Source of the DNA: Aspidiotus rigidus
Taxonomy: Eukaryota; Arthropoda; Insecta; Hemiptera; Diaspididae
Assembly (NCBI GenBank): GCA_035079385.1
Contig: JAVHKY010000028.1
Coordinates: 2,852,001-2,916,000 of the forward strand
DNA: 64,000 bases
Reading direction: 5' to 3'
The notes beneath the pieces are model-generated. The model was given only the letters and a program-made list of their open reading frames with translations. It searched no databases and had not been told where the DNA came from. The translations under genes and the position numbers were made by a program. Shown piece by piece: positions 7,855-64,000 of this stretch (position 1 is the stretch's first letter; each line of letters begins with the position of its first letter).

Positions 7855-7860
7855 ATCAGG
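7855..7860. repeat. Left target-site duplication of the Maverick derivative
   Basis: ATCAGG directly precedes the terminal AG of the element and recurs directly after its terminal CT at 14761-14766. A 6-bp duplication is the length made by Maverick/Polinton integrases. Confidence 0.88.
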
Positions 7861-7968
7861 AGTAGAGGAGGGTCACTATAGAAGACCTAATAGAACACAC
7901 CCCTTGTTGTGGTAGGGATGAAGATATCCTACAGTAACCATCGCCATCTTTAATTTTAAATTTTTTGG

Positions 7969-7986
7969 TAGTTCTAAAAAGAACTA
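7969..7986. terminator. Perfect hairpin after the 220-aa gene (left arm)
   Basis: A 7-bp perfect stem (TAGTTCT/AGAACTA) with a 4-nt loop lies 7 bases past the stop codon of the 220-aa gene. It could mark transcript ends or be a terminal structural element. The function is inferred only from position. Confidence 0.4.
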
Positions 7987-7993
7987 TTAATTT

Positions 7994-8656
7994 TTAAAGT
8001 TCTTCTTCTTCACTATCGTCTGTGTAATCATTATAGCTATACCTATGGTCCCAAACAGGAGGATCGTAATCATCCTCTGAATCATATGAAAAATTCAACT
8101 CTTCACGACGCACAAGTGCAATCTTACGTAAAGTTTCTAGAGTTATATCTAAATCGAGAGTGATATCATGACACTTAGTCACACATTCGCAAAAAGGTGG
8201 AAACTCTGTAATATCATTTTTGAAACATGTACATTTTTGACAGTGTTCCTCGCAAAAACAACAACGTTCTTTTACACTATTGTATTTAGGGTTACACTCA
8301 ACAAGTTTCTTACCATTAAACTTTATAAAACCCGATCGTGTAAAAGAATATTCATTAGGGTTAATATATATCATAACATTATTTAAAACTAATGTCGTAT
8401 AATAATCATGATCAAAGTGTTTACATAGAATATTATATATTACATTTGGTACAAGATCCCTTACACGTACCAGAGGTCGATCAGAAGCGCAAGGTGGATT
8501 GGAACATGGAATGTGAGACTTACTGATAATTGCTTTAAACGCTTTCTCCGGATATATACAGATATTTTGTATCGCTTGCGTATAATTTTTTATTTTATTT
8601 TTGTAGCACTGAGAAGGGCTGTTTTGAGAGGTAGTAGGATCAGAGTAAGAAGACAT
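7994..8656 (-). CDS. Cys-rich, acidic-tailed protein of unknown function (left copy, 220 aa)
   Basis: This gene reads toward the tip and starts at an ATG (8656) preceded by GAATAAC; upstream in-frame extension needs a non-ATG start. I do not recognise the family. Visible features: a Ser/Thr/Gln-rich N-terminus; a Cys pair near residues 51 and 56; a dense cluster CCFCEEHCQKCTCF around residue 135, followed by further Cys (CECVTKC), which suggests zinc binding; and a strongly acidic C-terminus ending DDSEEEEL. It differs from the right copy by one residue (Asp here, Tyr there, in the KCH-ITLD segment). Its TATA box and TCATT initiator are listed separately. Possible roles are a regulator or DNA-binding protein, but nothing proves this. 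Confidence 0.72.
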   Translation of the reverse strand: MSSYSDPTTSQNSPSQCYKNKIKNYTQAIQNICIYPEKAFKAIISKSHIPCSNPPCASDRPLVRVRDLVPNVIYNILCKHFDHDYYTTLVLNNVMIYINPNEYSFTRSGFIKFNGKKLVECNPKYNSVKERCCFCEEHCQKCTCFKNDITEFPPFCECVTKCHDITLDLDITLETLRKIALVRREELNFSYDSEDDYDPPVWDHRYSYNDYTDDSEEEEL

Positions 8657-8765
8657 GTTATTCGTAATCAGTCTCAAAATACAATGATTTATTATTCGTT
8701 ATACACTTACTTATATAGTTTTTTTATTTTACACCATTAGTAAGGTCCCCCAACTCTTTATATAG
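8657..8765 (-). promoter_or_regulatory. Promoter of the 220-aa gene (left): TATATAAG plus TCATT
   Basis: On the minus strand TATATAAG lies at 8717-8710 and TCATT at 8687-8683. The first T of the TATA box is 32 nt upstream of the A of TCA, which is canonical RNA polymerase II core-promoter spacing in arthropods. The predicted leader is about 29 nt. The mirror copy is at 13856-13964. Confidence 0.6.
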
Positions 8766-9131
8766 TCAATGATGTGATATAAAGATGATTTTAGCTGTTG
8801 GGTGGTAACTCATTACATCCCATCTACCCCAAAACTTAGCCTTAAAAAATAGATCTTGATCGTTGTCATCAATTGACATACATGTGTAGAGTATGGTTCT
8901 TTTTTTAATTTCTTGCAAAAGTTCTACAAAATATTCTCTGTATCTATAACTATATTTTATTAATTTTCTGTATTTTCTCGAGCTCACATTCTCTGAATCA
9001 TAAAAGGTGAGCATATATTTATCATTTTCTGTCATTCTTCCTAAAACACAACTAGCTTCTAATTTATCATCTATATAGAGAAGACAGAGATGTTTCCAAA
9101 ACTCAAATCTTTTCCCCATGATTTTTGTCAT
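8766..9131 (-). CDS. Unknown 121-aa protein (left copy)
   Basis: This gene starts at the ATG at 9131 (MTKIMGKRFEF). A second ATG follows four codons on, and the 14 codons upstream of 9131 in frame would need GTG. It is rich in aromatic and charged residues, without signal peptide, membrane span or recognised domain. It begins 29 bases after the stop of the TBP-like gene in a different frame. I see no TATA-initiator pair at the right distance, so it may be read from the TBP transcript. The right copy is identical in translation. No function is proposed. Confidence 0.65.
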   Translation of the reverse strand: MTKIMGKRFEFWKHLCLLYIDDKLEASCVLGRMTENDKYMLTFYDSENVSSRKYRKLIKYSYRYREYFVELLQEIKKRTILYTCMSIDDNDQDLFFKAKFWGRWDVMSYHPTAKIIFISHH

Positions 9132-9160
9132 ACAATCTTTTTTATAGTGAAAGTAGAACC

Positions 9161-9706
9161 TTATTTGAAACACTCTTTCAGTTTTGGAACTATATGGTTG
9201 TATATTTTTTCAATGTCAGCTTTATTCTTTATTCCAGTCATGAATACTTTTCCCGACATAAAAATCATTATTTTGGTCTTTTCTAATGTATAAATGCAAC
9301 CGGAGAATAATTCTGGTTCATAACTACTATTTAGTGTGTTAGATTTCACAAAATTTTCTAACTTTATTCTTGCTCCCATATCCCAACAGACTACAAAATT
9401 ATGTACTTTGAAGTTTCGAACCTTAACCTTAAACCCTACATCTCTAATGATTTTTGAACATATATGAAAAGCATCGCGTGCTATCATCTCCTCGCAAGTA
9501 CCTCCGCAGACTACCTTACCCGAATCCCATACAAGAACAGTTGCTTTAGGACGTTTTAGTCTAACAATCAAGGCTCGAAAACGGTCAGGATTGTAGGACA
9601 TCTGAAAATTAAAATCATCTGGTTTTGCTAGTCTGTTAATTCCATCTAAGTCTTGCATATGAGACAAGTCTGCTGTCGCAGTCATATTCTTTATACAATA
9701 CTCCAT
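9161..9706 (-). CDS. TATA-binding protein homologue (left copy, 181 aa)
   Basis: The whole protein is a TBP core with no N-terminal extension: two related repeats at about residues 5-93 and 97-180, matching the usual core of about 180 residues. Landmarks are minor-groove Asn in both repeats (N7 in KNMTATADL, N103 in HNFVVCWDM), intercalating aromatics F43, W60, F134 and F149 (three of the four Phe kept, one replaced by Trp), paired SGK turns at 62-64 and 151-153, and SYEPELF before F134. Known: TBP bends TATA DNA and nucleates polymerase II and III preinitiation complexes. Inferred: it serves transcription of the element's own genes. The start ATG is the first in frame, 7 nt after a TCAGT initiator. 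It is divergent from the capsid-like gene across 119 bp. Confidence 0.93.
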   Translation of the reverse strand: MEYCIKNMTATADLSHMQDLDGINRLAKPDDFNFQMSYNPDRFRALIVRLKRPKATVLVWDSGKVVCGGTCEEMIARDAFHICSKIIRDVGFKVKVRNFKVHNFVVCWDMGARIKLENFVKSNTLNSSYEPELFSGCIYTLEKTKIMIFMSGKVFMTGIKNKADIEKIYNHIVPKLKECFK

Positions 9707-9825
9707 GATGACTGATTACTGATCACTCAAACACTCTCTTTTATAGGCTTTCTATAAATAGATCCTACATTTCTTCTAATATATACTTATACTCGATAGA
9801 TTTCTTGTTTTCATTACAAAGAGAA
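9707..9825. promoter_or_regulatory. Bidirectional TBP/capsid promoter (left)
   Basis: This gap of 119 bp separates two divergent start codons. For the TBP-like gene (minus strand), TATAAAAG at 9745-9738 and TCAGT at 9715-9711 are 32 nt apart by the T-to-A rule. For the capsid-like gene (plus strand), TATATAC at 9780-9786 and TCATT at 9811-9815 are 33 nt apart; a further TATAAATA lies at 9753-9760. Predicted leaders are only 7 and 13 nt. TCAGT is the arthropod initiator consensus. Confidence 0.62.
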
Positions 9826-11040
9826 ATGGATTCTAAAATAGTAAGCTGCGAAGACTTTGACTACAGACCGGCGTTGTCTGAAAATATCAACGCAGCAGGA
9901 GGGGAGTTCTCAATATGTGTAAACAATGAGGACATAACTACTCATCCTCATAAAAGTCGACTCGTCATTAATGGTCAGGTCACAGTTACTCAATTAGTTA
10001 GAAATAATAAAGATGGAGTCTCGGAGAGAATAGCAAGAACTAAGCTCGATAAATCAATAATAACTATGGTAAATAATGGTGCACTGACTTTATTTGATAG
10101 AATTGACTACTATGTAGGTGACTGCAAGATAGACTCAGTGAGGAAACCGTTTTTCTGTAGCACGATGAAAGGTTTAGTATCATTTGAGCACGACAAGAAG
10201 TACAACGACGGAGGTTGGAAAATTGAACATCCTGATAGTACGATTATCAATTCTACAGGGTATTTTAGTTTGAACATTAATCTCTCGACGATTATGGGTT
10301 TCTTTGAAGATTATGTAAAATTTTTGTATAGGGTACCTCAAAAACTTGTTTTTCATAGATCTGTATCTACTAATGATAACATGTTCCTTGACACTAACGC
10401 AGATGATAATATTAGTGTGACTCTGAAAGATATGGTATGGCGTATACCTCAAATCAAATTTTCCATAGAGTATGAAGCAAAGGTACGCAAAGAAATTCTA
10501 AACGGAAAAAGTTTTGAAATGGTGTATAGACATTGGTTATACCAAAGCATTCCTATTCCTCAAACAACAGAATTTAGTTGGGAAATACCTACTAGTTATT
10601 CGAGAATCAAATATGTCTTATTAGCATTCCAGAACAGAGCCAAGGAAAATAAATTGTCTGAAGATAACGCTACTTTTGATCTGTTCAACCTTGAAAATGT
10701 ACAAATTTTACTAAATAATCACTCTTACTATCCTCGAGAAAGATTAAACCTTAAACTATCTGAAAATAAACTCGGAAGACTGTATTACATGTATAAAATC
10801 TTCAAGTCATCCTATTACGCCCGAAATGAGAATGAAGTTGAGCCTTTAGTAGATTATAACACTTTTGTCGAGAAATATCCTATAATTGCTATTGATTGTT
10901 CGCTTCAAGAATCTATCATTAAAGACTCATTAATTAACTCAGTGTTCGGATTTAGAGTACTCACCCAGTTAGCTTCTGGTTCTAACTCTTGTATAACTTT
11001 TTCTATGTCTTCCAATGTATATGAACCTGTTGGAATTTGA
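9826..11040 (+). pseudogene. Capsid-like gene, left copy, truncated at the fold-back joint
   Basis: The start is the ATG at 9826 (context GAGAAATGG). The open frame extends upstream to a TTG at 9805, which is not a likely start. Residues up to the shared Asp-Ser-Leu-Ile-Asn are identical to the right copy. After 10939 the arm ends and the frame runs into antisense sequence of the neighbouring spacer gene, adding about 33 unrelated residues before a stop. The natural C-terminal part is therefore missing and the product would be chimeric. See the right copy (11554-12795) for the family. Confidence 0.88.
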
Positions 11041-11231
11041 AGTTCTACATCGGAAGTACTATCGGGAGGTATTAATGATAATATATTATTGGTTTTAGTT
11101 ATGTTTGGTACATTGTGACAGATGACTAAAGATTTTAGACCAACCTCGTATTCACCCTCTAGATCAATACCTTCATGATAATGTCTATGTATGTCAGAGT
11201 TTGAGTTGGTTATTGCTATTTGGAAAGCCAT
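10905..11231 (-). pseudogene. Truncated structural-type gene of virus-like elements
   Basis: The start codon at 11231 is real (AAAAATGGC). About 97 codons of genuine sequence follow before the fold-back joint at 10939/10940; the last residues are antisense capsid-like sequence. The N-terminal part carries YEVGLKSLVICHNVPNI and then IPTGSYTLEDIEKVIQE. I recognise this pairing (a beta-rich segment, then a Gly-Ser-Tyr-x-x-Glu/Asp-Asp-Ile motif) from uncharacterised insect proteins found beside the same capsid-like family in virus-like elements. The exact role (penton, fibre or other) is not established here. In the ancestor it followed the capsid-like gene on the same strand. Confidence 0.6.
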
Positions 11232-11681
11232 TTTTCACCTTTTTTCTTAGAAACAATATAGCATCTCCTATTTATGAAGCAGTGAATTTCAGGAAGGTTT
11301 TCGATTTTTTAAAAGAAGGTTTTAGAATTTTGGGAAGGTTTTAGAATTTCAAAAGAAGGTTTTAGAATTTCAGGAAGGTTTTCGATTTTTAAAAGAAGGT
11401 TTTGAATTGTCCATAAGAAATGCATTGATTGGACGGTGTTTAAGAAGAAGGTTTTCGATTTTTAAAAGAAGGTTTTAAAATTTCAGGAAGGTTTTAGAAT
11501 TTCAAAAGAAGGTTTTAGAATTTTGGGAAGGTTTTAGAATTTTTAAAATATTCTCAACCTGTACTATGAACAACTGTATTATGAAGAGGGGTGTAAACAG
11601 CTTTATCATCCATAATCATCACAGCGTGAATAATTGCTGAGTTATCAGGTATTGTGTCGCGCCAGTTGAAAAAGATTTTCA
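10940..11681. other. Unique 742-bp spacer between the arms
   Basis: The spacer contains, from left to right, the truncated structural-type gene (minus), a leader with an AT-rich stretch, eleven short tandem repeats, and the last part of the right capsid-like gene. It is single-copy, unlike the arms. The right side is colinear with the right arm; the left side is the illegitimate joint. Confidence 0.85.
11291..11550. repeat. AAGGTTTT short tandem repeats in the spacer
   Basis: Eleven copies of a GAAGGTTTT(AG/CG)A core occur, mostly 19-22 bp apart, interrupted once at about 11407-11450. The spacer words between cores alternate (AATTTCAAA, AATTTTGGG, TTTTTAAAA). They lie between the end of the capsid-like gene and the start of the next structural gene. 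Repeats in such positions may be enhancers, origins or packaging signals in DNA viruses; which applies here is unknown. Confidence 0.8.
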
Positions 11682-12795
11682 AGTTAATTAATGAGTCTTT
11701 AATGATAGATTCTTGAAGCGAACAATCAATAGCAATTATAGGATATTTCTCGACAAAAGTGTTATAATCTACTAAAGGCTCAACTTCATTCTCATTTCGG
11801 GCGTAATAGGATGACTTGAAGATTTTATACATGTAATACAGTCTTCCGAGTTTATTTTCAGATAGTTTAAGGTTTAATCTTTCTCGAGGATAGTAAGAGT
11901 GATTATTTAGTAAAATTTGTACATTTTCAAGGTTGAACAGATCAAAAGTAGCGTTATCTTCAGACAATTTATTTTCCTTGGCTCTGTTCTGGAATGCTAA
12001 TAAGACATATTTGATTCTCGAATAACTAGTAGGTATTTCCCAACTAAATTCTGTTGTTTGAGGAATAGGAATGCTTTGGTATAACCAATGTCTATACACC
12101 ATTTCAAAACTTTTTCCGTTTAGAATTTCTTTGCGTACCTTTGCTTCATACTCTATGGAAAATTTGATTTGAGGTATACGCCATACCATATCTTTCAGAG
12201 TCACACTAATATTATCATCTGCGTTAGTGTCAAGGAACATGTTATCATTAGTAGATACAGATCTATGAAAAACAAGTTTTTGAGGTACCCTATACAAAAA
12301 TTTTACATAATCTTCAAAGAAACCCATAATCGTCGAGAGATTAATGTTCAAACTAAAATACCCTGTAGAATTGATAATCGTACTATCAGGATGTTCAATT
12401 TTCCAACCTCCGTCGTTGTACTTCTTGTCGTGCTCAAATGATACTAAACCTTTCATCGTGCTACAGAAAAACGGTTTCCTCACTGAGTCTATCTTGCAGT
12501 CACCTACATAGTAGTCAATTCTATCAAATAAAGTCAGTGCACCATTATTTACCATAGTTATTATTGATTTATCGAGCTTAGTTCTTGCTATTCTCTCCGA
12601 GACTCCATCTTTATTATTTCTAACTAATTGAGTAACTGTGACCTGACCATTAATGACGAGTCGACTTTTATGAGGATGAGTAGTTATGTCCTCATTGTTT
12701 ACACATATTGAGAACTCCCCTCCTGCTGCGTTGATATTTTCAGACAACGCCGGTCTGTAGTCAAAGTCTTCGCAGCTTACTATTTTAGAATCCAT
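11554..12795 (-). CDS. Candidate double jelly-roll major capsid protein (right copy, 413 aa)
   Basis: This is the complete copy, starting at the ATG at 12795 and ending with TGA at 11556-11554. I recognise the family as conserved uncharacterised proteins of about 400-450 residues found in many arthropod virus-like elements. Shared landmarks are a FFEDYVKFLYRVPQKLVFHRS segment near residue 165, a VTLKDMVWRIP segment, a conserved tract around NNHSYYPRERLNL, then YYMYKIFKSSYY, and a C-terminal IIAIDCS followed by a beta-rich tail. These are thought to be capsid proteins; size, beta-rich composition and neighbours fit, but I cannot fold or search it. No signal peptide or membrane segment is seen. 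It is divergent from the TBP-like gene and followed by tandem repeats. Confidence 0.7.
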   Translation of the reverse strand: MDSKIVSCEDFDYRPALSENINAAGGEFSICVNNEDITTHPHKSRLVINGQVTVTQLVRNNKDGVSERIARTKLDKSIITMVNNGALTLFDRIDYYVGDCKIDSVRKPFFCSTMKGLVSFEHDKKYNDGGWKIEHPDSTIINSTGYFSLNINLSTIMGFFEDYVKFLYRVPQKLVFHRSVSTNDNMFLDTNADDNISVTLKDMVWRIPQIKFSIEYEAKVRKEILNGKSFEMVYRHWLYQSIPIPQTTEFSWEIPTSYSRIKYVLLAFQNRAKENKLSEDNATFDLFNLENVQILLNNHSYYPRERLNLKLSENKLGRLYYMYKIFKSSYYARNENEVEPLVDYNTFVEKYPIIAIDCSLQESIIKDSLINLKIFFNWRDTIPDNSAIIHAVMIMDDKAVYTPLHNTVVHSTG

Positions 12796-12914
12796 TTCTC
12801 TTTGTAATGAAAACAAGAAATCTATCGAGTATAAGTATATATTAGAAGAAATGTAGGATCTATTTATAGAAAGCCTATAAAAGAGAGTGTTTGAGTGATC
12901 AGTAATCAGTCATC
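12796..12914. promoter_or_regulatory. Bidirectional TBP/capsid promoter (right)
   Basis: Mirror of 9707-9825. TBP side (plus strand): TATAAAAG at 12876-12883 and TCAGT at 12906-12910. Capsid side (minus strand): TATATAC at 12841-12835 and TCATT at 12810-12806. Confidence 0.62.
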
Positions 12915-13460
12915 ATGGAGTATTGTATAAAGAATATGACTGCGACAGCAGACTTGTCTCATATGCAAGACTTAGATGGAATTAACAGACTAGCAAAACC
13001 AGATGATTTTAATTTTCAGATGTCCTACAATCCTGACCGTTTTCGAGCCTTGATTGTTAGACTAAAACGTCCTAAAGCAACTGTTCTTGTATGGGATTCG
13101 GGTAAGGTAGTCTGCGGAGGTACTTGCGAGGAGATGATAGCACGCGATGCTTTTCATATATGTTCAAAAATCATTAGAGATGTAGGGTTTAAGGTTAAGG
13201 TTCGAAACTTCAAAGTACATAATTTTGTAGTCTGTTGGGATATGGGAGCAAGAATAAAGTTAGAAAATTTTGTGAAATCTAACACACTAAATAGTAGTTA
13301 TGAACCAGAATTATTCTCCGGTTGCATTTATACATTAGAAAAGACCAAAATAATGATTTTTATGTCGGGAAAAGTATTCATGACTGGAATAAAGAATAAA
13401 GCTGACATTGAAAAAATATACAACCATATAGTTCCAAAACTGAAAGAGTGTTTCAAATAA
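12915..13460 (+). CDS. TATA-binding protein homologue (right copy, 181 aa)
   Basis: Translation is identical to the left copy (9161-9706): a complete two-repeat TBP core with N7 and N103, F43, W60, F134 and F149, and both SGK turns. The reading frame is intact in both arms with no stop or shift, so selection or very recent arrival (or arm-to-arm conversion) has kept it. Codons and AT content match the other element genes, and there is no intron. A processed copy of the host TBP gene is unlikely because the sequence is far from animal TBP, which is nearly invariant in this core. The 121-aa gene starts 29 bases after its stop. Confidence 0.93.
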   Translation: MEYCIKNMTATADLSHMQDLDGINRLAKPDDFNFQMSYNPDRFRALIVRLKRPKATVLVWDSGKVVCGGTCEEMIARDAFHICSKIIRDVGFKVKVRNFKVHNFVVCWDMGARIKLENFVKSNTLNSSYEPELFSGCIYTLEKTKIMIFMSGKVFMTGIKNKADIEKIYNHIVPKLKECFK

Positions 13461-13489
13461 GGTTCTACTTTCACTATAAAAAAGATTGT

Positions 13490-13855
13490 ATGACAAAAAT
13501 CATGGGGAAAAGATTTGAGTTTTGGAAACATCTCTGTCTTCTCTATATAGATGATAAATTAGAAGCTAGTTGTGTTTTAGGAAGAATGACAGAAAATGAT
13601 AAATATATGCTCACCTTTTATGATTCAGAGAATGTGAGCTCGAGAAAATACAGAAAATTAATAAAATATAGTTATAGATACAGAGAATATTTTGTAGAAC
13701 TTTTGCAAGAAATTAAAAAAAGAACCATACTCTACACATGTATGTCAATTGATGACAACGATCAAGATCTATTTTTTAAGGCTAAGTTTTGGGGTAGATG
13801 GGATGTAATGAGTTACCACCCAACAGCTAAAATCATCTTTATATCACATCATTGA
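13490..13855 (+). CDS. Unknown 121-aa protein (right copy)
   Basis: Identical in translation to the left copy. The start is the ATG at 13490; ATG at 13502 is an alternative. A TATAAAAA at about 13475 lies too close to the first ATG to drive it, but could give a shorter transcript using the internal ATG. No known domain is seen. The C-terminal part holds a KFWGRWDVMSYHP tract. Confidence 0.65.
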   Translation: MTKIMGKRFEFWKHLCLLYIDDKLEASCVLGRMTENDKYMLTFYDSENVSSRKYRKLIKYSYRYREYFVELLQEIKKRTILYTCMSIDDNDQDLFFKAKFWGRWDVMSYHPTAKIIFISHH

Positions 13856-13964
13856 CTATATAAAGAGTTGGGGGACCTTACTAATGGTGTAAAATAAAAA
13901 AACTATATAAGTAAGTGTATAACGAATAATAAATCATTGTATTTTGAGACTGATTACGAATAAC
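13856..13964 (+). promoter_or_regulatory. Promoter of the 220-aa gene (right): TATATAAG plus TCATT
   Basis: TATATAAG at 13904-13911 and TCATT at 13934-13938 give T-to-A spacing of 32 nt; the predicted leader is about 29 nt. A second CTATATAAAG lies at about 13856-13865, near the end of the 121-aa gene. Confidence 0.6.
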
Positions 13965-14627
13965 ATGTCTTCTTACTCTGATCCTACTACCTCTCAAAAC
14001 AGCCCTTCTCAGTGCTACAAAAATAAAATAAAAAATTATACGCAAGCGATACAAAATATCTGTATATATCCGGAGAAAGCGTTTAAAGCAATTATCAGTA
14101 AGTCTCACATTCCATGTTCCAATCCACCTTGCGCTTCTGATCGACCTCTGGTACGTGTAAGGGATCTTGTACCAAATGTAATATATAATATTCTATGTAA
14201 ACACTTTGATCATGATTATTATACGACATTAGTTTTAAATAATGTTATGATATATATTAACCCTAATGAATATTCTTTTACACGATCGGGTTTTATAAAG
14301 TTTAATGGTAAGAAACTTGTTGAGTGTAACCCTAAATACAATAGTGTAAAAGAACGTTGTTGTTTTTGCGAGGAACACTGTCAAAAATGTACATGTTTCA
14401 AAAATGATATTACAGAGTTTCCACCTTTTTGCGAATGTGTGACTAAGTGTCATTATATCACTCTCGATTTAGATATAACTCTAGAAACTTTACGTAAGAT
14501 TGCACTTGTGCGTCGTGAAGAGTTGAATTTTTCATATGATTCAGAGGATGATTACGATCCTCCTGTTTGGGACCATAGGTATAGCTATAATGATTACACA
14601 GACGATAGTGAAGAAGAAGAACTTTAA
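13965..14627 (+). CDS. Cys-rich, acidic-tailed protein of unknown function (right copy, 220 aa)
   Basis: Right-arm twin of 7994-8656, differing by a Tyr for Asp after KCH (position 14454). The start is ATG 13965 (MSSYSD). The Cys cluster CCFCEEHCQKCTCF and the DDSEEEEL tail are intact. No family is recognised; it is the gene closest to the element tip, 133 bp from the end. Confidence 0.72.
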   Translation: MSSYSDPTTSQNSPSQCYKNKIKNYTQAIQNICIYPEKAFKAIISKSHIPCSNPPCASDRPLVRVRDLVPNVIYNILCKHFDHDYYTTLVLNNVMIYINPNEYSFTRSGFIKFNGKKLVECNPKYNSVKERCCFCEEHCQKCTCFKNDITEFPPFCECVTKCHYITLDLDITLETLRKIALVRREELNFSYDSEDDYDPPVWDHRYSYNDYTDDSEEEEL

Positions 14628-14634
14628 AAATTAA

Positions 14635-14652
14635 TAGTTCTTTTTAGAACTA
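14635..14652. terminator. Perfect hairpin after the 220-aa gene (right arm)
   Basis: TAGTTCT, a TTTT loop and AGAACTA lie 7 bases past the stop. It is the mirror image of 7969-7986. Confidence 0.4.
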
Positions 14653-14760
14653 CCAAAAAATTTAAAATTAAAGATGGCGATGGTTACTGTAGGATATCTT
14701 CATCCCTACCACAACAAGGGGTGTGTTCTATAAGGTGTTCTATAGTGACCCTCCTCTACT

Positions 14761-14766
14761 ATCAGG
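14761..14766. repeat. Right target-site duplication of the Maverick derivative
   Basis: ATCAGG directly follows the terminal CT and matches 7855-7860 exactly. Confidence 0.88.
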
Positions 14767-20529: not shown

Positions 20530-20786
20530 TTAGTTGCTTCTACAAGAGTACTTTCGGGTGTCGCATTTGGAGAACAAGGCCTTGACCATAAGTTTTTATA
20601 GTATAACACTGTGATCTTATTGGCTATAACAATGCTGTGTTGTGATTGGTTCACTTCTTAGAAACTTATTCTTACAATAATATGACATTGTATTCTTATT
20701 GGCTAAAATATACTGCTTAGTGATTGGTTCAATCTATTGATCTAAATGCTGCGTTTCTATTGGCTACCTGCATTTCTGCCGTCTCT

Positions 20787-21206
20787 TCAATTGGTTCTGT
20801 TCTTCTCTCGTCCAATAACAAGGCCGAATAACTTTTCGCTGTCAAATGTGATTACATTGTTCAAGAGGCAGGCTTTCTCCCTCTTGGCTTTTGCAATCCC
20901 CTCTTGTTCCCAGAGTTTTCTTCTCTTTGTTCGATTCTCTACATTTGTGACTTCAAATATTCCCTCTCCATCGTGGTGTTCTTCGTGACAGTGTTTCGCA
21001 GACAGTGACTTGCCATTTTGTTTCTCCCTCGACTTTTTATGCTCCTTTTTCCTGATCTCGAACTTTCTTACAGTCTCACCAATGTAGATGCCCTCGCACT
21101 GCTCGCAACTGAGCTTGTACACTCCGCTCAAGCTTTCCTTGTCCTTTTCTTCCGTCTGGTCATTGCTGATTCTCGTCACCATGGGTTGGTCATTCTGGAT
21201 ACCCAC
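20787..21206 (-). pseudogene. PLE GIY-YIG endonuclease, copy A
   Basis: This 139-codon open segment has the GIY-YIG nuclease fold start: SGVYKLSCEQCEGIYIGET, then a basic helix (RKFEIRKKEHKKSREKQNGK) and a His/Glu-rich part (AKHCHEEHH). PLE endonucleases carry a CysxxCys before the YIG, seen here as CEQC. Known role: nicking target DNA for retrotransposition. The segment is open, but the reverse-transcriptase part upstream is broken, so no complete polyprotein can be made. It reads Asn-rich toward the end and stops beyond the nuclease. Confidence 0.85.
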
Positions 21207-21489
21207 ATTTACATCGCACCGTAGCCATTGAACGCCTTTATCACCTTGTTTGCGTACTTTCCTATGTATGGTATCGATCCAGAGTACTTTCTCACTATGC
21301 CATCATGAGTTTATTTCTTTGTTTCCATTTTCCCAAAGACTCTATCCACCACGCCTCTACGGTAGCCATTGGCTTCTGCGATCTGCTTTACTACCTCGAT
21401 CTCTTTCCTTCTCTCTTCGTTGTTCTTGAGGACAAGAATTTCTCGATAGCAGTAGCTCTGGATTGCCGCCAATTTGTGCCTGGGTGGTG

Positions 21490-22480
21490 GTAGGAGTCTT
21501 TAATTTGGAATGATAGTTTCTGTTTGCGTCGGCTTCCTGCAGATTTTGTATTCTATCCTATTGTTCTCCAATGTGAGTGTAAGGTCCAAATCGTCGATGG
21601 TCTCATCGCCTTTTTCCACTGTGAATTTGATGCTTCCATTCATCGCGTTCATTTCTGAAGGGAATAGATCCACCTGTCTATCAGTGACTGACTACACAAT
21701 TAGGATATCATCTACATATCTGGCCCAGTGTTTGATCGAGTTTCTGAACTGACTGCCCTTCAATATCTTGTTTTCCATATCATTCATGAATATCTCCGCC
21801 AGTATTGGTGACAGCGGGGACCCCATCGCAAGTCCTTTTTCCTGACTGTAGAACCTGTTATTAAAGCGGCAGTAGTTCTGGCTCAAGATCTCTTCCACTA
21901 TGTTGGCGTACTTCGGCCCATCGGGGTTCCCATGTTATCTGCTGTTTTTGAGCAGAGTGAGAAGTTCCTCCTTCGGTATGGTACCAAACATGTTTGCAAC
22001 ATCATAGGATATCAGCTTTTCGTTCTCTTGATTTCCAACTTGTCCGGATACTCAATCAGCTCTCCGTTGTTTCTGATACTTCGTCTGGGTGCAAACTAGT
22101 AGTTTTCTTTCAGGAATGTGGCTACGATCTTCGCTATCTTGTAGCATGGTGATTGAATGCTGTTGATCAGGGGTCTCATCGGACGGTTCGCTTTGTGGAG
22201 TTTTACGAGCCCCTTGAGTTTTGGTGCAACTAGGTGTATCTCAAGCGTCCTTCCATTGCCGAGTACATTGTTCCGTTTCAATACAGCTTTCAGGTCATCT
22301 TGGTATTTCTGTGTTGCGTCCTTTGTCAGCTCTTGGTATCCATTCACTGTGATGTTCGACTCCACTCTTTGGATGAAGTCTTTCTTCTCCATCACCACTA
22401 CCGCCTTGCCTTTGTCAAAATTAGGTTGTTCTGTCGGATCTTCTTTTGTAGATTTATGACCTTCCTCTGCATTACTTGCG
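21490..22480 (-). pseudogene. PLE reverse transcriptase, copy A (frameshifted)
   Basis: Separate frames hold reverse-transcriptase blocks in order: GLVKLHKANRPMRPLINSI (22096-22398), then GLAMGSPLSPILAEIF and the catalytic WARYVDDILIV (21692-21898), then a segment resembling the IYRKPT tail. YVDD supplies two of the catalytic aspartates. At least two frameshifts separate the blocks. Confidence 0.85.
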
Positions 22481-23183
22481 TTATTTTTGGCACATATTCT
22501 CTTTGATGTCCAACATCACTTTCCCAATTTTGGTAGGGCTTTTGGTCTCACGTCGTGTTCCATGGTTCGGATTACTTGTTCGCAGCTAATGGCCATAATT
22601 TCAAGCTTACGCTGGTTCAGCCTCTCCGACTGCACGTACTTGATGCCTTTGTCCAGCAATCTTCTTTCTCCTTCTGTGAAGGTGACGCTTGATAGGTTCT
22701 CGGTTCTGGGAGCAAAGTTATGCTCAGCTCTCGCTGTCTCTTCCTTTCTTTCTTCTTTCTTCCGGGCCAGTTTGGCAAGCTGAGAACGACAGGATAGAAT
22801 ACCAAATCTACAGGAAGCCGACGCATACAGACATCATCATCCCAAATGACTCCTACCACCACCCAGGTACAAATTGGTGGCAATCCAGAACTACTGCTAT
22901 CGAGCAATTCCTGTCCTCAAGAACAACAAAAAGAAAAGGAAAAAGATCGAGATGATCGCAGAAGCCAATGGCTACTGCAGATGCGTGGTGGATGAAGTCT
23001 TTGGGAAAATGGTAACAAAGAAAGGAACCCATGGTGGCATAGTGAGAAAGTACTCCGGATCGATACCATACATAGGAAAGAAAGGTGTTTAATGGATACG
23101 ATGTAAATGTGAGTATCCAGAATAACCAACCCATGGTAAAGAGAATCAGCAATGACCAGACGGAACAAAAGGACTAGGAAAAT

Positions 23184-23475
23184 TTGAGCGGAGTGTACAA
23201 GCTCAATTGTGAGCAGTGCGAGGGCATCTACATTGGTGAGACTGAAGAAAATTCGAGATCAGGAAAAAAGAGCACCAAAAGTCAGTGGAGAAACAAGATG
23301 GCAAGTCAGTGTTTGGGAAACATTGTAACGAAGAACACCACTGTGGAAAGGGAATATTTGATGTCATACATGTAGAGAATCGCACAAAGAGAAGAAAACT
23401 CTGGGAACGAATAGAGATTGCAAACGCAAAGAGGAAGAAAGTCCGCCCTATTGAACAATGTAACCACGTTTGACA
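23184..23475 (+). pseudogene. PLE GIY-YIG endonuclease, copy B (frameshifted)
   Basis: SGVYKLNCEQCEGIYIGETE is intact, but a frame change follows, and the rest (GKHCNEEHHCGKGIFDVIHV) continues in another frame at 23285-23473. The catalytic first Tyr pair and YIG are present. Non-functional as it stands. Confidence 0.8.
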
Positions 23476-23759
23476 GGAAAAAATTATTCGGCCTGGTGAT
23501 TGGACGAGAGAAGAACAGAACGAACCAATGAGACGGCAAGAAATCAGGTAGGCAATAGAAACCCAGCTTTTAGGACAATAGATTGAACCAATCATCAAGC
23601 AGAATGTTTTAGCCAATAAGAACACAATATCAAATTATTCTAAGAATAAGTTTCTAAGAAGTGGACCAATCACAACACAGCATTGTTATAGCCAATAAGG
23701 TCACAGTCTTATACTATAAGAACTCATGGTTAAGGCCTTGTTCTCCAGTTGCGACACAT

Positions 23760-29040: not shown

Positions 29041-30570
29041 GACTTAGAAGAATTTCGAGTCTCAAGCTATATATGAAAGGAGGGGGACTTGGAAGAATTT
29101 CAAGTCTCGAGCTATATATAATAGGGGGGGGGGGACTTGGAAGAATTTCGACTTTCGAGCTACCGTCCGCCGTCCAACCAAAAACTTGGAAAAATTTTGA
29201 GACTCGAGCTATATATGATAGAAGGGGACTTGGAAGAATTTCAAGTCTTAAGATATATATGATAGGAGGGGGACTTGGAAGAATCGTGACTTTCGAGCTA
29301 TATATGATAGGAGGGGGACTTAGAAGAATTTCAAGTCTCGAGCTATATATGATAGGAGGGGTACTTAAAAGAATTTCAAGTCTCGAGCTATATATAATAG
29401 GGGGGGGGGGGGACTTGGAAGAATTTTGACTTTCGAGCTACCGTCCGCCGTCCAACCAAAAACTTGGAAAAATTTTGAGACTCGAGCTATATATGATAGA
29501 AGGGGACTTGGAAGAATTTCAAGTCTTGAGATATATATGATAGGAGGGGGACTTGGAAGAATCGTGACTTTCGAGCTATATATGATAGGAGGGGGACTTG
29601 GAAGAATTTCAAGTCTCGAGCTATATATGATAGGAGGGCGACTTAGAAGATTTAGAAGAATTTCAAGTCTCGAGCTATATATAATAGGGGGGGGGGGACT
29701 TGGAAGAATTTTGACTTTCGAGCTACCGTCCGCCGTCCAACCAAAAACTTGGAAAAATTTTGAGACTCGAGCTATATATGATAGAAGGGGACTTGGAAGA
29801 ATTTCAAGTCTTGAGATATATATGATAGGAGGGGGACTTGGAAGAATCGTGACTTTCGAGCTATATATGATAGGAGGGGGACTTAGAAGAATTTCAAGTC
29901 TCGAGCTATATATGATAGGAGGGGGACTTAGAAGATTTAGAAGAATTTCAAGTCTCGAGCTATATATAATAGGGGGGGGGGGGGGACTTGGAAGAATTTT
30001 GACTTTCGAGCTACCGTCCGCCGTCCAACCAAAAACTTGGAAAAATTTTGAGACTCGAGCTATATATGATAGAAGGGGACTTGGAAGAATTTCAAGTCTT
30101 GAGATATATATGATAGGAGGGGGACTTGGAAGAATCGTGACTTTCGAGCTATATATGATAGGAGGAGGACTTAGAAGAATTTCAAGTCTCGAGCTATATA
30201 TGATAGGAGGGGGACTTAGAAGAATTTCAAGTCTCGAGCTATATATGATAGGGTGGGGGACTTGGAAGAATTTTGACTTTCGAACTACCGTCCGCCGTCC
30301 AACCAAAAACTTGGAAAAATTTTGAGACTCGAGCTATATATGATAGAAGGGGGACTTGGAAGAATTTCAAGTCTTGAGATATATATGATAGGAGGGGGAC
30401 TTGGAAGAATCGTGACTTTCGAGCTATATATGATAGGAGGGGGACTTGGAAGAATTTCAAGTCTCGAGCTATATATGATAGGAGGGCGACTTAGAAGATT
30501 TAGAAGAATTTTGAGTCTCGAACTATATATGTTAGGAGGGGGACTTGGAAGAATTGTGACTTCCGAGCTA
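29041..30570. repeat. 45-bp satellite with a roughly 280-bp higher-order repeat
   Basis: The basic unit is about 45 bp (CTATATATGATAGGAGGGGG, then ACTTGGAAGAATTTCAAGTC, then TCGAG), some 34 units in all. A variant containing GTCCGCCGTCCAACCAAAAA recurs at about 29165, 29445, 29729, 30015 and 30292, giving a higher-order period of 277-286 bp repeated about five times. Because 45 is divisible by three, open frames of about 300 codons exist on both strands (15-residue repeats such as LELYMIGGGLGRISS); these are artefacts, not genes. Confidence 0.9.
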
Positions 30571-39690: not shown

Positions 39691-40893
39691 CTGGGAATCA
39701 TTATGAGACAAACCAAATCTTTTGTCAACATGTCTGTTCTCCGCTTGCTGTATCTGGTGCTTGTACGATCACATCTGGATAGTGCAAGTGTAATATGGGG
39801 TCCAGTAGGTAAGAGGAAGTTGAAAAAAATTGAACATATTCACAAGATATCTTCATTTTAGAAATTTTGGGTATTACGATACCTCAATTACTTATTCGGA
39901 ATTGGTCCTGGGTTACGAGTCAACTACTCTATAAGTGAGAAGCGAACTTAGTTTAATAATGATAGTGAGGGATATCCTGTGTGGAAAAACTGAATCGTCG
40001 TTCTTACTAAGTAAGATAAATTTCCTTGCTCCATCCAGAACGAGTAGGTGTAGAGATATCTTTCAGATTCCTCAGCACAGAACGCAGCAATTTGCTTCTG
40101 CTCCACGGCGTCGTGGCCTGTCTCTGTTGAACCGTGTTGTTAAAGAAGACCGCACAATTGATATATTTTTTGACAGTAGAAAAATGTTAGGTAGCAAGGT
40201 GACGACAGTCCTCATGAACTTCAAATTGATAATGCTTGCCCATACCTTATTTTTGTTTATTATCCATTTTTTTTTTTTTTTTTTTTTTTTTAACATCATA
40301 AATCTTTTAGTTTGATCTTGTCCGCACCCCTACGAACGGCCTCCATATATCTGTAATTATTATTATTTTATTTATTTATTTATTTATTTTTATTTTTATT
40401 TTTTTGTTTATTCTCCGAAATGATTGGTTTGTGGAAGGGGTTGGGGGATGGGATATGGGACCAGGTTTGGGGTGGCTAGTGGTTGACATATTATCATTAT
40501 TTTTTATTTATTTTTTTTTATTTTTATTTTCATTTTGTTTCTGTTTTGAATTTTGAATTTTGTTTGTTTATTATCCGTATTTTTCTATCATTTTTATTTT
40601 TATTTATTTTTATTATTTTTTTATTATTTTTTTTTAGTTTGAATTTTTAATTTTGTTCGTTTATTATCCGTATTTTTCTATTATTTTTATTTTTATTTTT
40701 TTTATTTTTTTTTTTCAGTTTGAATTTTAATTTTATTTGTTTATCATCCGTATTTTTCTGTTGTTTTTATTTTTATTTTTGTTTTAATTTTTTTTTTTCT
40801 ATCTTTTTTATTTATAGTGCCCTCCTGTCATTGGCCGATCGGCTGTTGGAGGGCACTCCAATAATACATATAAATAAATGAATAAATAAATGT
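39691..40893 (+). mobile_element. LINE 3' fragment, copy 2
   Basis: Same element as 919-2351. The coding remnant at 39716-40260 is better preserved: SVLRLLYLVLVRSHLDSASV then, after frame changes, LLSKINFLAPSRTSRCRDIF and RRRGLSLLNRVVKEDRTIDI. A T-rich region with diverged tandem units (TTTTGTTCGTTTATTATCCG-type, repeated three times at 40555-40760) follows. It ends with GGCCGATCGGCTGTTGGAGG and an AAATAAATG tail at about 40893. Confidence 0.75.
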
Positions 40894-58242: not shown

Positions 58243-58623
58243 TCACATGTTTTGATTATAATAGCTTCCAATATCATTCTTTTCGTAACCTAGAATGTTA
58301 GCATTATTGAAATCGAAGCGATGGCCTGTGCTTGAGGTATGTTGATAAAGCGCAGTGATCTCGAGGTTGTTGATAACATCATTCTTGTGTTGCTTCAATC
58401 TCTTGTCCAGCAGCTGTTTTGTCTCGCCAATATTATAAACTTTATCGCATTCAGTACAAGTAATATTGTAGACTAAATTAGAACGATAAGTAGCGGGTAC
58501 ATGGTCTTTTAATTTGGTAAAAAAAGTATTAGAAAACTTGTAACAACTAGAAGTAAAACGAATGTTGGGGGCGAGTTTTTCCAAATGTTTTTTTAAAATT
58601 AGGCTGGGGAAGCAGTAGACCAA
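58243..58623 (-). pseudogene. PLE family 3 GIY-YIG endonuclease
   Basis: About 126 codons read LAPNIRFTSSCYKFSNTFFT, then VYNITCTECDKVYNIGETKQ and KRLKQHKNDVINNLEITALY with QHTSSTGHRFDF. The YIG motif reads YNIG, an inserted Asn, whereas the second copy at 63840-64000 has YIG. The Cys pair (CTEC) precedes it. The N-terminal start is an artefact of the inserted transposon boundary; the natural polyprotein continues on the other side (60107-61109). Confidence 0.85.
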
Positions 58624-59385
58624 GAAATGAAGCCAGAAAAATAGGGCTACCTGGATACGATGAATACGGAGCTGATTTTTTCATAAAATGTTCAGAACCT
58701 TCCCCTGAAGGTGTCCTCAAAAATCCCCGCGAATCCTGATGGGGCTTTCCCTTTTACAGGGGGGCAAAGGGAGAAAAATTGAGTTTTTCGTCAATAACTC
58801 GGTAACAAGTGATGCTACAAAAAAAAGTTTCAAACAAAAATTGTTCTACACCCAATTTCCTACGAAAGATGTTTTATTACTTTTTTCCAAAAATTGATAG
58901 TTTTGTCGTTATAGCGTGCTAAAATTATAGCTCTCACTTATGTACGTAAAAAGAAGTACATGCAAAAAGTATACGCGCTTACGCTCCTATTTTTCTACAC
59001 CTGTCTCCACGCGTGTCTCTTTGTTATTTGTGTTATTTGTTTATGTTTTGATGCTTCCTTATATCAAAATCACTGCTTGTATTTATAAACTTTTTGTTCT
59101 TCAATGCAGCTCTTACTCACTGTACCTACAAGTCGCGTATAACACTTTTACATGGTGCGCGTATATGACAAGAAGGTGGGTGTATGATGCGCTCTAGCGG
59201 CTTAAATATGAACTTAAACGGAAAAAGTCATAGAACATTGTTTGTAGGAAATTTGGCGTAGAAGAATTTTTATATGAAACTTTTTTTTGTAGGATCACTT
59301 GTTATCGAGTTATTGATAAAAAAAACTCGCAGCCCACACAGTTAGCTGCTCGGAATTGCCTTCATTAACTCTGTTAATTGAGGCA

Positions 59386-60510: not shown

Positions 60511-61109
60511 TTATTTAGATAAATACATTACAATGTAATTTTCGCGGATGGACCGGGAAAGCTTGTCTAAAACAATCTCGGACGCTATAGATGAAAGAGG
60601 GCCGCCCGTGGGAACACCTTCCAATTGTGAATAATGGACGTTTTCGAACTTACAGTATCCTTGTGTGAGGCAGAACTCCAGGGACTCGGAAAAAAGTTCT
60701 TGATCTAGGGCTGTGAAATTCTCTATTTCATTCCATCTTTCTCTTGTGGTTTCCATTACAAGGGGAACTGGAACGTTTGTGAAGAGGGCCACTGCATCGA
60801 ATGAAGCTAGGACGTCTTCATTATACCTAACTGTAGATTTTTTATATCCAGGGTGAATTGATGTGAGTTGCGGACGTTTATAGTGTCGTCTGTAATACAG
60901 GTGAGCATGCCAGCCGAGAATTGAGAGAGGTTATAAGTTTGAGCATTAGTGAAGGAGACGATTGGTCTGAGTGGGTTTCCCAGCTTATGTATTTTGGGCA
61001 CGCCATAAATCCGTAGGGAATTGCTGGTGTATGTGGTGAGGAACTTCCTGACTTGTAGATCGATGTATTTCTTGTCGTCATCACGATTTACTTCTGATAA
61101 GGTGATCAT
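60511..61109 (-). pseudogene. PLE family 3 reverse transcriptase core (frameshifted)
   Basis: Two frames: LRIYGVPKIHKLGNPLRPIV (60807-61109, early fingers) and ALFTNVPVPLV followed by GVPTGGPLSSIASEIVLDKL (60511-60792, palm). The usual aspartate in the A block (expected as xDVxxLFTNVP) is disrupted by the frame change and YxDD is lost near 60515. Non-functional. Confidence 0.8.
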
Positions 61110-63839: not shown

Positions 63840-64000
63840 AGTTGCAAGGCTACACGCCCGTGTCCTGAATGCGATAAAGTTTATATTGGCGAGACAAAAC
63901 AGCTGCTGGATAAGAGATTGAAGCAACACAAGAATGATGTTATCAACAACCTCGAGATCACTGCGCTTTGTCAACATACCTCAAGCACAGGCTATCGCTT
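63840..64000 (+). pseudogene. PLE family 3 GIY-YIG endonuclease, second copy (runs off window)
   Basis: From about 63866 the plus strand encodes CPECDKVYIGETKQLLDKRL, KQHKNDVINNLEITALCQHT and SSTGYRF. It is nearly the same as 58243-58470 in inverted orientation, but with an intact YIG. It continues past the window edge, so completeness cannot be judged. The sequence before it does not match the family, indicating 5' truncation. Confidence 0.82.

Follow-up and report, generated by a model that had tools for sequence, protein, structure and literature searches.

No eukaryotic transcription factor is more general than the TATA-binding protein (TBP), and DNA elements of Maverick size are commonly held to rely on the TBP of their host. 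A locus of Aspidiotus rigidus (Hemiptera, Diaspididae) raises the question of whether such an element can carry a TBP of its own. The locus lies in a window of 64,000 nucleotides (contig JAVHKY010000028.1, positions 2,852,001 to 2,916,000 of the forward strand), which is the whole stretch of DNA analysed here and the source of all coordinates below. A sequence-only reading of this window had claimed an intact 181-codon gene for a full two-repeat TBP core in both arms of a Maverick-like element, head to head with a candidate capsid gene. The two genes are as follows.

9161..9706, minus strand: TATA-binding protein gene, left copy (181 aa; Pfam, PDB matches, AlphaFold model)
12915..13460, plus strand: TATA-binding protein gene, right copy, identical (arm comparison)

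The 181-codon frame at 9706..9161, on the minus strand in the left arm of the element, encodes a genuine two-repeat TATA-binding protein. Its product matched PF00352 in Pfam with an E-value of 8.3e-39, in two stretches that correspond to two TBP repeats. A sequence search of the PDB returned 35 distinct matching sequences at E up to 10, all of them labelled TBP, TFIID or TBP fusions save one that has a locus name only. The AlphaFold model (mean pLDDT 95.5) adopts the saddle fold, and its best matches in the PDB are TBPs, at E about 1e-19, TM about 0.9 and an rmsd of 1.3–1.8. Profile and fold thus bear out the full two-repeat core. Each residue named in the sequence-only reading is also in place: N7 and N103, three Phe and one Trp at the kinking sites (F43, F134, F149 and W60), the motif SYEPELF, and both SGK turns, at residues 62–64 and 151–153. 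The copy at 12915–13460 on the plus strand is identical to the left one, with none of the three mismatches between the arms inside it, so that both arms do hold the intact gene.

The element around these genes is a palindrome, laid out as follows.

7855..7860: target-site duplication, left copy ATCAGG, abutting the element end
7861..10939, plus strand: left arm of the palindrome, beginning AGTAGAGGAGGG (3079 nt, 3 mismatches to the right arm)
10940..11681: unique centre (742 nt), continuing the right arm without a break and meeting the inverted copy at 10939/10940
11284..11548: short imperfect tandem repeats GAAGGTTTTAGAATTT in units of about 20/40 nt, between the capsid and cut-off genes
11682..14760, minus strand: right arm of the palindrome, ending CCCTCCTCTACT (arm comparison)
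14761..14766: target-site duplication, right copy ATCAGG, abutting the element end

Two 3,079-bp arms are arranged as an inverted repeat about the 742-bp centre and differ at only three positions (7884, 7889 and 8167), none of which falls within a TBP or capsid frame. The arms have exact outer limits at 7861 and 14760, where the ends read AGTAGA...TCTACT, and the 6-mer ATCAGG abuts the element at both ends as a target-site duplication; the 7-mers differ. Because the arms end at this duplication with a near-Maverick end motif, we regard 7861–14760 as an integrated 6.9-kb element of Maverick/Polinton type. A fold-back artefact of assembly was considered and, judging from the assembled sequence, rejected, given the exact stop at the 6-bp duplication, outward flanks without inverted symmetry (18/60 match) and the three differences between the arms. 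Two other inverted repeats were observed in the window. One lies in pieces at 20558–21501 and 22845–23757 (85–92% complementary), contains a frame at 20790–21302 with a sub-threshold GIY-YIG match, and is perhaps an old foldback or Penelope-like pair. The other, of 118 nt and 97% complementary, joins 58316–58433 to 63883–64000 at the window end, with a sub-threshold GIY-YIG frame (58246–58680) and a reverse transcriptase piece (60514–60930) nearby.

Vertebrate Mavericks are described as having 6-bp target-site duplications and end motifs of (AGT)2 or (AG)3, to which AGTAGA is close without being identical (PMC8097293). The element shares with Mavericks/Polintons (adintoviruses) the 6-bp duplication, AGT-type ends, inverted terminal repeats and a double-jelly-roll capsid gene, and the earlier label of Maverick-like is backed by these features. 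It differs from them in that the copy in the window is palindromic, only 6.9 kb long, without polymerase or integrase, and equipped with a TBP. The window holds 90 stop-to-stop frames of at least 90 codons, of which 59 were scanned for domains; the Pfam scan found no protein-primed PolB and no retroviral-type integrase among the element's own frames, and for this reason we file the copy as a derivative and not as an autonomous Polinton. The sole integrase-like row among the 59 frames is a sub-threshold retroelement-type integrase tail (Integrase_p58_C, SH3_Tf2-1) at 2–304 on the plus strand, outside the element.

The other frames of the element are the following.

11554..12795, minus strand: double-jelly-roll capsid protein, complete (413 aa; PF21738 2e-44 and fold)
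9826..11040, plus strand: capsid gene, left copy (404-aa frame), its 3' end replaced at the arm boundary by unique sequence (arm comparison, Pfam)
8766..9131, minus strand: ORF121, left copy (single Pfam row, below cut-off)
13490..13855, plus strand: ORF121, right copy (frame list)
7994..8656, minus strand: ORF220, left copy, with a Cys-rich middle (without a Pfam row)
13965..14627, plus strand: ORF220, right copy, one residue different (mismatch 8167/14454; arm comparison)
10905..11231, minus strand: start of a further gene (108-aa frame), truncated by the palindrome join (frame list)

The complete capsid protein matched the double jelly roll of PF21738 with an E-value of 2e-44, and structure searches paired its model with major capsid proteins of viruses, giant-virus capsids being the top matches and those of Sputnik and mavirus also among them. 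The capsid assignment of the sequence-only reading therefore stands by profile and by fold, but the gene is complete only at 12795..11554 and not in its left copy. TBP and capsid genes do lie head to head, with 119 bp separating their start codons. The cut-off gene at 10905–11231 (minus strand) gave no row in Pfam or PHROGs; its opening resembles what we take to be proteins adjoining capsid genes in other insect Mavericks. A PHROGs search with five element proteins gave two weak rows only.

The lack of polymerase and integrase, the giant-virus capsids at the top of the structural matches and an end motif that is not exactly (AGT)2 or (AG)3 would also suit another double-jelly-roll virus that integrated in the host, and not a Maverick/Polinton. 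We hold this to be highly improbable given the exact 6-bp duplication, the AGT-type inverted ends and the presence of Sputnik and mavirus among the structural matches.

The right arm and the centre together make up a single uninterrupted parental end (3,821 bp), in which the gene order is ORF220, ORF121, TBP, capsid gene, tandem repeats and cut-off gene (11231..10905). Since this end is then followed by its own inverted copy, both ends of the integrated DNA derive from one parental end, and since the duplication brackets the whole palindrome, integration came after the rearrangement. Integration of an already rearranged palindrome would in turn call for an integrase supplied from elsewhere. 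Palindromic defective genomes are known from linear protein-primed viruses such as adenovirus. There, as here, both ends come from one parental end and internal genes are lost, whereas the element studied here sits in a chromosome, flanked by a target-site duplication. Its shape is that expected of the snap-back form of a linear protein-primed genome, and by this analogy a strand may have snapped back during replication of a linear parent, giving a palindromic 6.9-kb derivative that would then have been integrated by the parental integrase in trans. No title on palindromic or defective Polintons appeared among the literature matches listed.

The tandem repeats at 11284–11548 are a possible origin or enhancer. 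Repeats of other kinds were also seen elsewhere in the window. Five tandem copies of a 275–288-nt unit (66–97% identical to the first), with long frames on both strands, occupy 29086–30506, where the plus frame 29369–30322 has a match to the BEACH-protein PH domain (E 1.3e-6); these units are possibly a multiplied host-gene exon or a satellite. A 236-nt direct repeat (1064–1299 and 39857–40092, 95% identical) spans 38.8 kb, with related short-period repeats beside each copy.

A TBP that serves the element would require promoters on which to act, and the sequences upstream of the five element genes were scored for TATA boxes and initiators; TCAKT is an arthropod-type initiator motif.

9713..9745, minus strand: TBP promoter, TATAAAA from 9745, spaced 32 nt from the A (9713) of a TCAGT initiator; another TCAGT at 25 nt
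9780..9813, plus strand: capsid promoter, TATATA from 9780, spaced 33 nt from the A (9813) of a TCATT initiator
8685..8717, minus strand: ORF220 promoter, TATATAA from 8717, spaced 32 nt from the A (8685) of a TCATT initiator
9140..9146, minus strand: ORF121 TATAAAA, 15 nt upstream of the first start codon (too close for that codon), without an initiator

The best TATA scores in the 75 nt before the five start codons sum to 44.7, as compared to 19.1 (sd 4.9) in shuffled sequence, and 0/500 shuffles scored as high. Taken singly, scores as high arose in 3/500 shuffles for TBP, 2/500 for the capsid gene and 10/500 for ORF121; those of ORF220 (39/500) and the cut-off gene (82/500) are weak. TATAWA followed by a TCAKT initiator at 30–33 nt precedes three of the five genes (ORF220 at 32, TBP at 32 and capsid at 33 nt). 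This was equalled in 0/2,000 shuffles and in 0/5,000 stretches of 100 nt drawn at random from the rest of the window, although the shuffle count flatters because a 32-nt spacing was already known when the 30–33 nt range was chosen, and the TBP and capsid promoters are not independent because both share one 119-bp intergenic stretch. The higher-scoring TATA box of the capsid gene, TATAAATAG, lies 73 nt upstream of the start codon with no initiator to pair with, and the search for TATA-initiator pairs found neither TATA box nor initiator for the cut-off gene. The pairs look like putative polymerase II promoters, which host TBP could use too. That the element sets up its own preinitiation complexes, as the sequence-only reading had suggested, is still something we infer, strengthened because such pairs precede three of five genes.

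Of 254 candidates from a search with the single TBP sequence, seven proteins had E-values of 1e-3 or lower; they are 53–82% identical and lie on contigs of 1.0–3.2 kb. With a TBP profile, 169 proteins were obtained at E up to 1e-5, and the best 120 of the 169 were examined: the seven close relatives score 311–349 bits, followed by P0009 (174 bits, 45% identical) and then by 112 cellular-type rows from 150 bits down (25–44% identical). P0009 is a borderline family member, lying at 174 bits between 311 (P0008) and 150 (the next row) and having an end branch of 2.55. Including it, the eight relatives are 45–82% identical to the element TBP, with full-length or nearly full-length frames. With the capsid protein as query, 43 of 2,330 candidates had E-values of 1e-3 or lower and were up to 92% identical; six of these are proteins of scale insects or mealybugs (Parthenolecanium corni, Planococcus citri and Kerria lacca; 44–49% identical), and the element lineage probably lives in insects. 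No match was found in IMG/VR with P0001, A2 and the capsid alignment, in GTDB genomes with the capsid and TBP alignments, or in INPHARED phages with the capsid protein.

The lengths of the 8 TBP contigs were compared with the 42 lengths listed for the 43 capsid relatives (the longest contig per cluster), and no length was common to both sets. The pairing of TBP and capsid is therefore seen only in this window, and the missing contig match counts mildly against the pairing elsewhere, because with a gap of 119 bp some of the longer TBP contigs might hold the capsid gene. A TBP of a Polinton, Maverick or adintovirus was likewise absent among the literature matches listed, whose coverage was mostly non-subscription and did not include the founding Polinton and adintovirus papers. 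We thus found no record of this known kind of gene in this kind of element.

The place of the family among TBPs was examined in two trees. The first comprised 68 rows, 62 of 121 TBP proteins and 6 of 10 IMG/VR loci, and recovered the nine family proteins as one clade (100/100) inside the eukaryotic TBPs, with a stem length of 2.28 changes per column; P0043 attached to this clade at 85/70, a union flagged as long branches meeting. One IMG/VR locus, L009, on a contig of 16.7 kb, has a very divergent TBP-like frame and the longest branch of this tree. For the second tree, of 61 rows, the longest or oddest were dropped (P0009, L008, L009, P0043, P0078, P0083 and P0108). The eight family proteins were again grouped at 100/100, on a stem of 2.8, with no resolved place among eukaryotic lineages. 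In AU tests on this 61-row tree, holding the family with metazoan-type TBPs gave p 0.383 and holding it with two eukaryotic-type IMG/VR viral TBPs gave p 0.236; in the free tree these two do not group with the family. We consider the separation of the family deep because the clade sits on so long a stem (2.3–2.8 changes per column). By these trees the TBP family is distinct, long-stemmed and nested within eukaryotic TBPs, and capture from cellular TBPs at some time is likely.

The sequence-only reading had named two findings that would speak against it, the lack of a significant TBP profile hit and a recent copy of the host TBP gene. The Pfam match disposes of the first outright. A recent copy is contradicted by an identity of 37–43% to eight cellular-type TBPs, a set that does not include the host's own, together with the long stem. 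Descent from TBPL1, suggested by a shared Trp at site 116, is not supported. The Trp is confined to P0001–P0005 (site 116 is F in P0006, P0008 and P0009 and Y in P0007). TBPL1, entered as a single approximate sequence in a tree from which six rows beyond those missing from the 61-row set were dropped, is 27–34% identical and is not sister to the family in the free tree, although the AU test does not reject their union (p 0.088). By eye, this approximate TBPL1 sequence also seems to lack Phe 99 and 190, both of which the element family keeps. TRF1, an insect TBP paralogue, is about 63% identical to the TBP core by the published figure (PMC3142196), in contrast to the 37–43% identity of the element TBP to eight cellular-type TBPs. 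Like the element protein, TRF1 and TBPL1 (TRF2/TLF) are variants on the TBP fold, and they steer polymerase towards other promoters (PMC3142196); unlike it, they are products of cellular genes.

The family's nesting within eukaryotic TBPs, the likelihood of a capture, and the fact that a TBP in this element type is seen in this window only would be in keeping with a cellular TBP or TBP paralogue carried as cargo, without function for the element. We judge this quite unlikely: cargo would hardly be expected to leave eight relatives, 45–82% identical, with their frames full-length or nearly so and their functional residues invariant, the long common stem and the TATA-initiator pair of the TBP gene itself argue against it, and TBPL1 (again as an approximate sequence) is only 27–34% identical and not joined with support, although its union with the family is not rejected (p 0.088). 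That the element has its own TBP is supported by profile, fold and tree.

TBP-like genes had been said to occur in some giant viruses, and a structure search of BFVD agrees, with 13 matches at E below 1e-7 (11–20% identical) that include Heterosigma akashiwo virus and Terrestrivirus. These, like mirusviruses, are DNA viruses of eukaryotes that carry a TBP; the TBP-bearing giant viruses and mirusviruses are large viruses. In one study, TBP is reported from 59% of mirusvirus genomes, with 0% for Nucleocytoviricota in that study's gene clusters (PMC10132985), and TBPs are also described in mirusvirus-like elements of a green alga.

In order to define which functional surfaces are kept, we compared the nine family rows with 41 cellular-type rows, mostly metagenome proteins, using yeast TBP numbering. 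The cellular-type rows share 53 positions with at least 90% conservation, of which 31 persist in 85% or more of the family members and nine in none. The kinking residues Phe 99, 190 and 207 are kept in 9/9, and the fourth, Phe 116, is W in five, Y in one and F in three. Asn 159 is kept in 9/9 and Asn 69 in the 4/4 rows that reach that site, as are Leu 114, Thr 215 and Glu 188 in 9/9 and Glu 186 in 8/9, the two Glu belonging to the TFIIB stirrup. Other positions on the DNA face are altered: Thr 124 and Arg 196 are each kept in 0/9, Val 213 is F or Y in 9/9, and Lys 97 is D/E in 8/9, so TATA affinity or specificity may differ.

The convex face has changed at four of five regulator-contact (Mot1/TAF1) sites. 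Position 145, K/R in 39/41 cellular-type rows, is Asp or Glu in 9/9 of the family; position 90, R/K/H in 31/41, is F/I/V in 9/9; Asn 91, present in 40/41, is kept in 1/9; and position 137, K/R in 39/41, is R in 1/9. The fifth, position 141, is basic (K/R) in 7/9 and variable in the cellular-type rows (R in 16/41). According to the relevant study, Mot1, TAF1-TAND and the importin Kap114p all contact TBP through R90, N91, R137, R141 and K145, and N91A, R141A and K145A each weaken Kap114p binding of TBP (PMC10491584). From these substitutions we infer that the family TBP can still kink TATA DNA and seat TFIIB and yet is poorly held by Mot1 and TAF1-TAND. Its import through Kap114p might also be weakened.

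Taken together, we tentatively favour, at somewhat under an even chance, a true TBP of a Maverick/Polinton-type element that would serve the element's promoters with host polymerase II under less host control. The protein would bind the element's own TATA boxes, and its kept SYEPELF stirrup would recruit host TFIIB and so host RNA polymerase II. Being less open to the convex-face regulators Mot1 and the TAF1 N-terminus, it may give element genes an initiation complex of their own that works under weaker restraint.

The retained TFIIB stirrup and most of the DNA-kinking residues would equally equip the protein for host shut-off, as a decoy that competes for TFIIB or TATA boxes and lowers host transcription without serving the element, and the changed regulator surface would leave a decoy unregulated too. 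This is unlikely, as the element's own genes carry TATA-initiator pairs that a decoy would harm as well, and a pure decoy need not keep three kinking Phe in 9/9. A partner other than TFIIB has also to be weighed. The TBP stirrup is common to TFIIB relatives as partners. Insect TRF1 is mostly Brf1-bound (PMC3142196), and the element TBP could similarly work with Brf in an RNA polymerase III-type complex, or with an element protein such as ORF121. The polymerase II-type TATA-initiator pairs of the element genes speak against Brf, and we regard such a partner as very unlikely.

A bolder form of the favoured reading, of a true TBP acting on the element's promoters, is possible and rather doubtful: a lineage of insect Mavericks would have swapped its dependence on host TFIID for a dedicated TBP rid of most of the surface on which the host's brakes (Mot1, TAF1 N-terminus) dock, and the palindrome would be a satellite that entered the chromosome with two TBP copies and a capsid gene and that may help its parent or cheat on it.

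A natural TBP with its DNA and TFIIB surfaces largely kept and a key regulator contact charge-reversed would offer a test of Mot1/TAF1 control. The rearranged palindrome within a single target-site duplication is what would be expected if Maverick-type DNA replicates in a linear, virus-like form before integrating. If true, possession of a private TBP by a Maverick lineage would mean that seizing the first step in transcription initiation is within reach even of mid-size elements.
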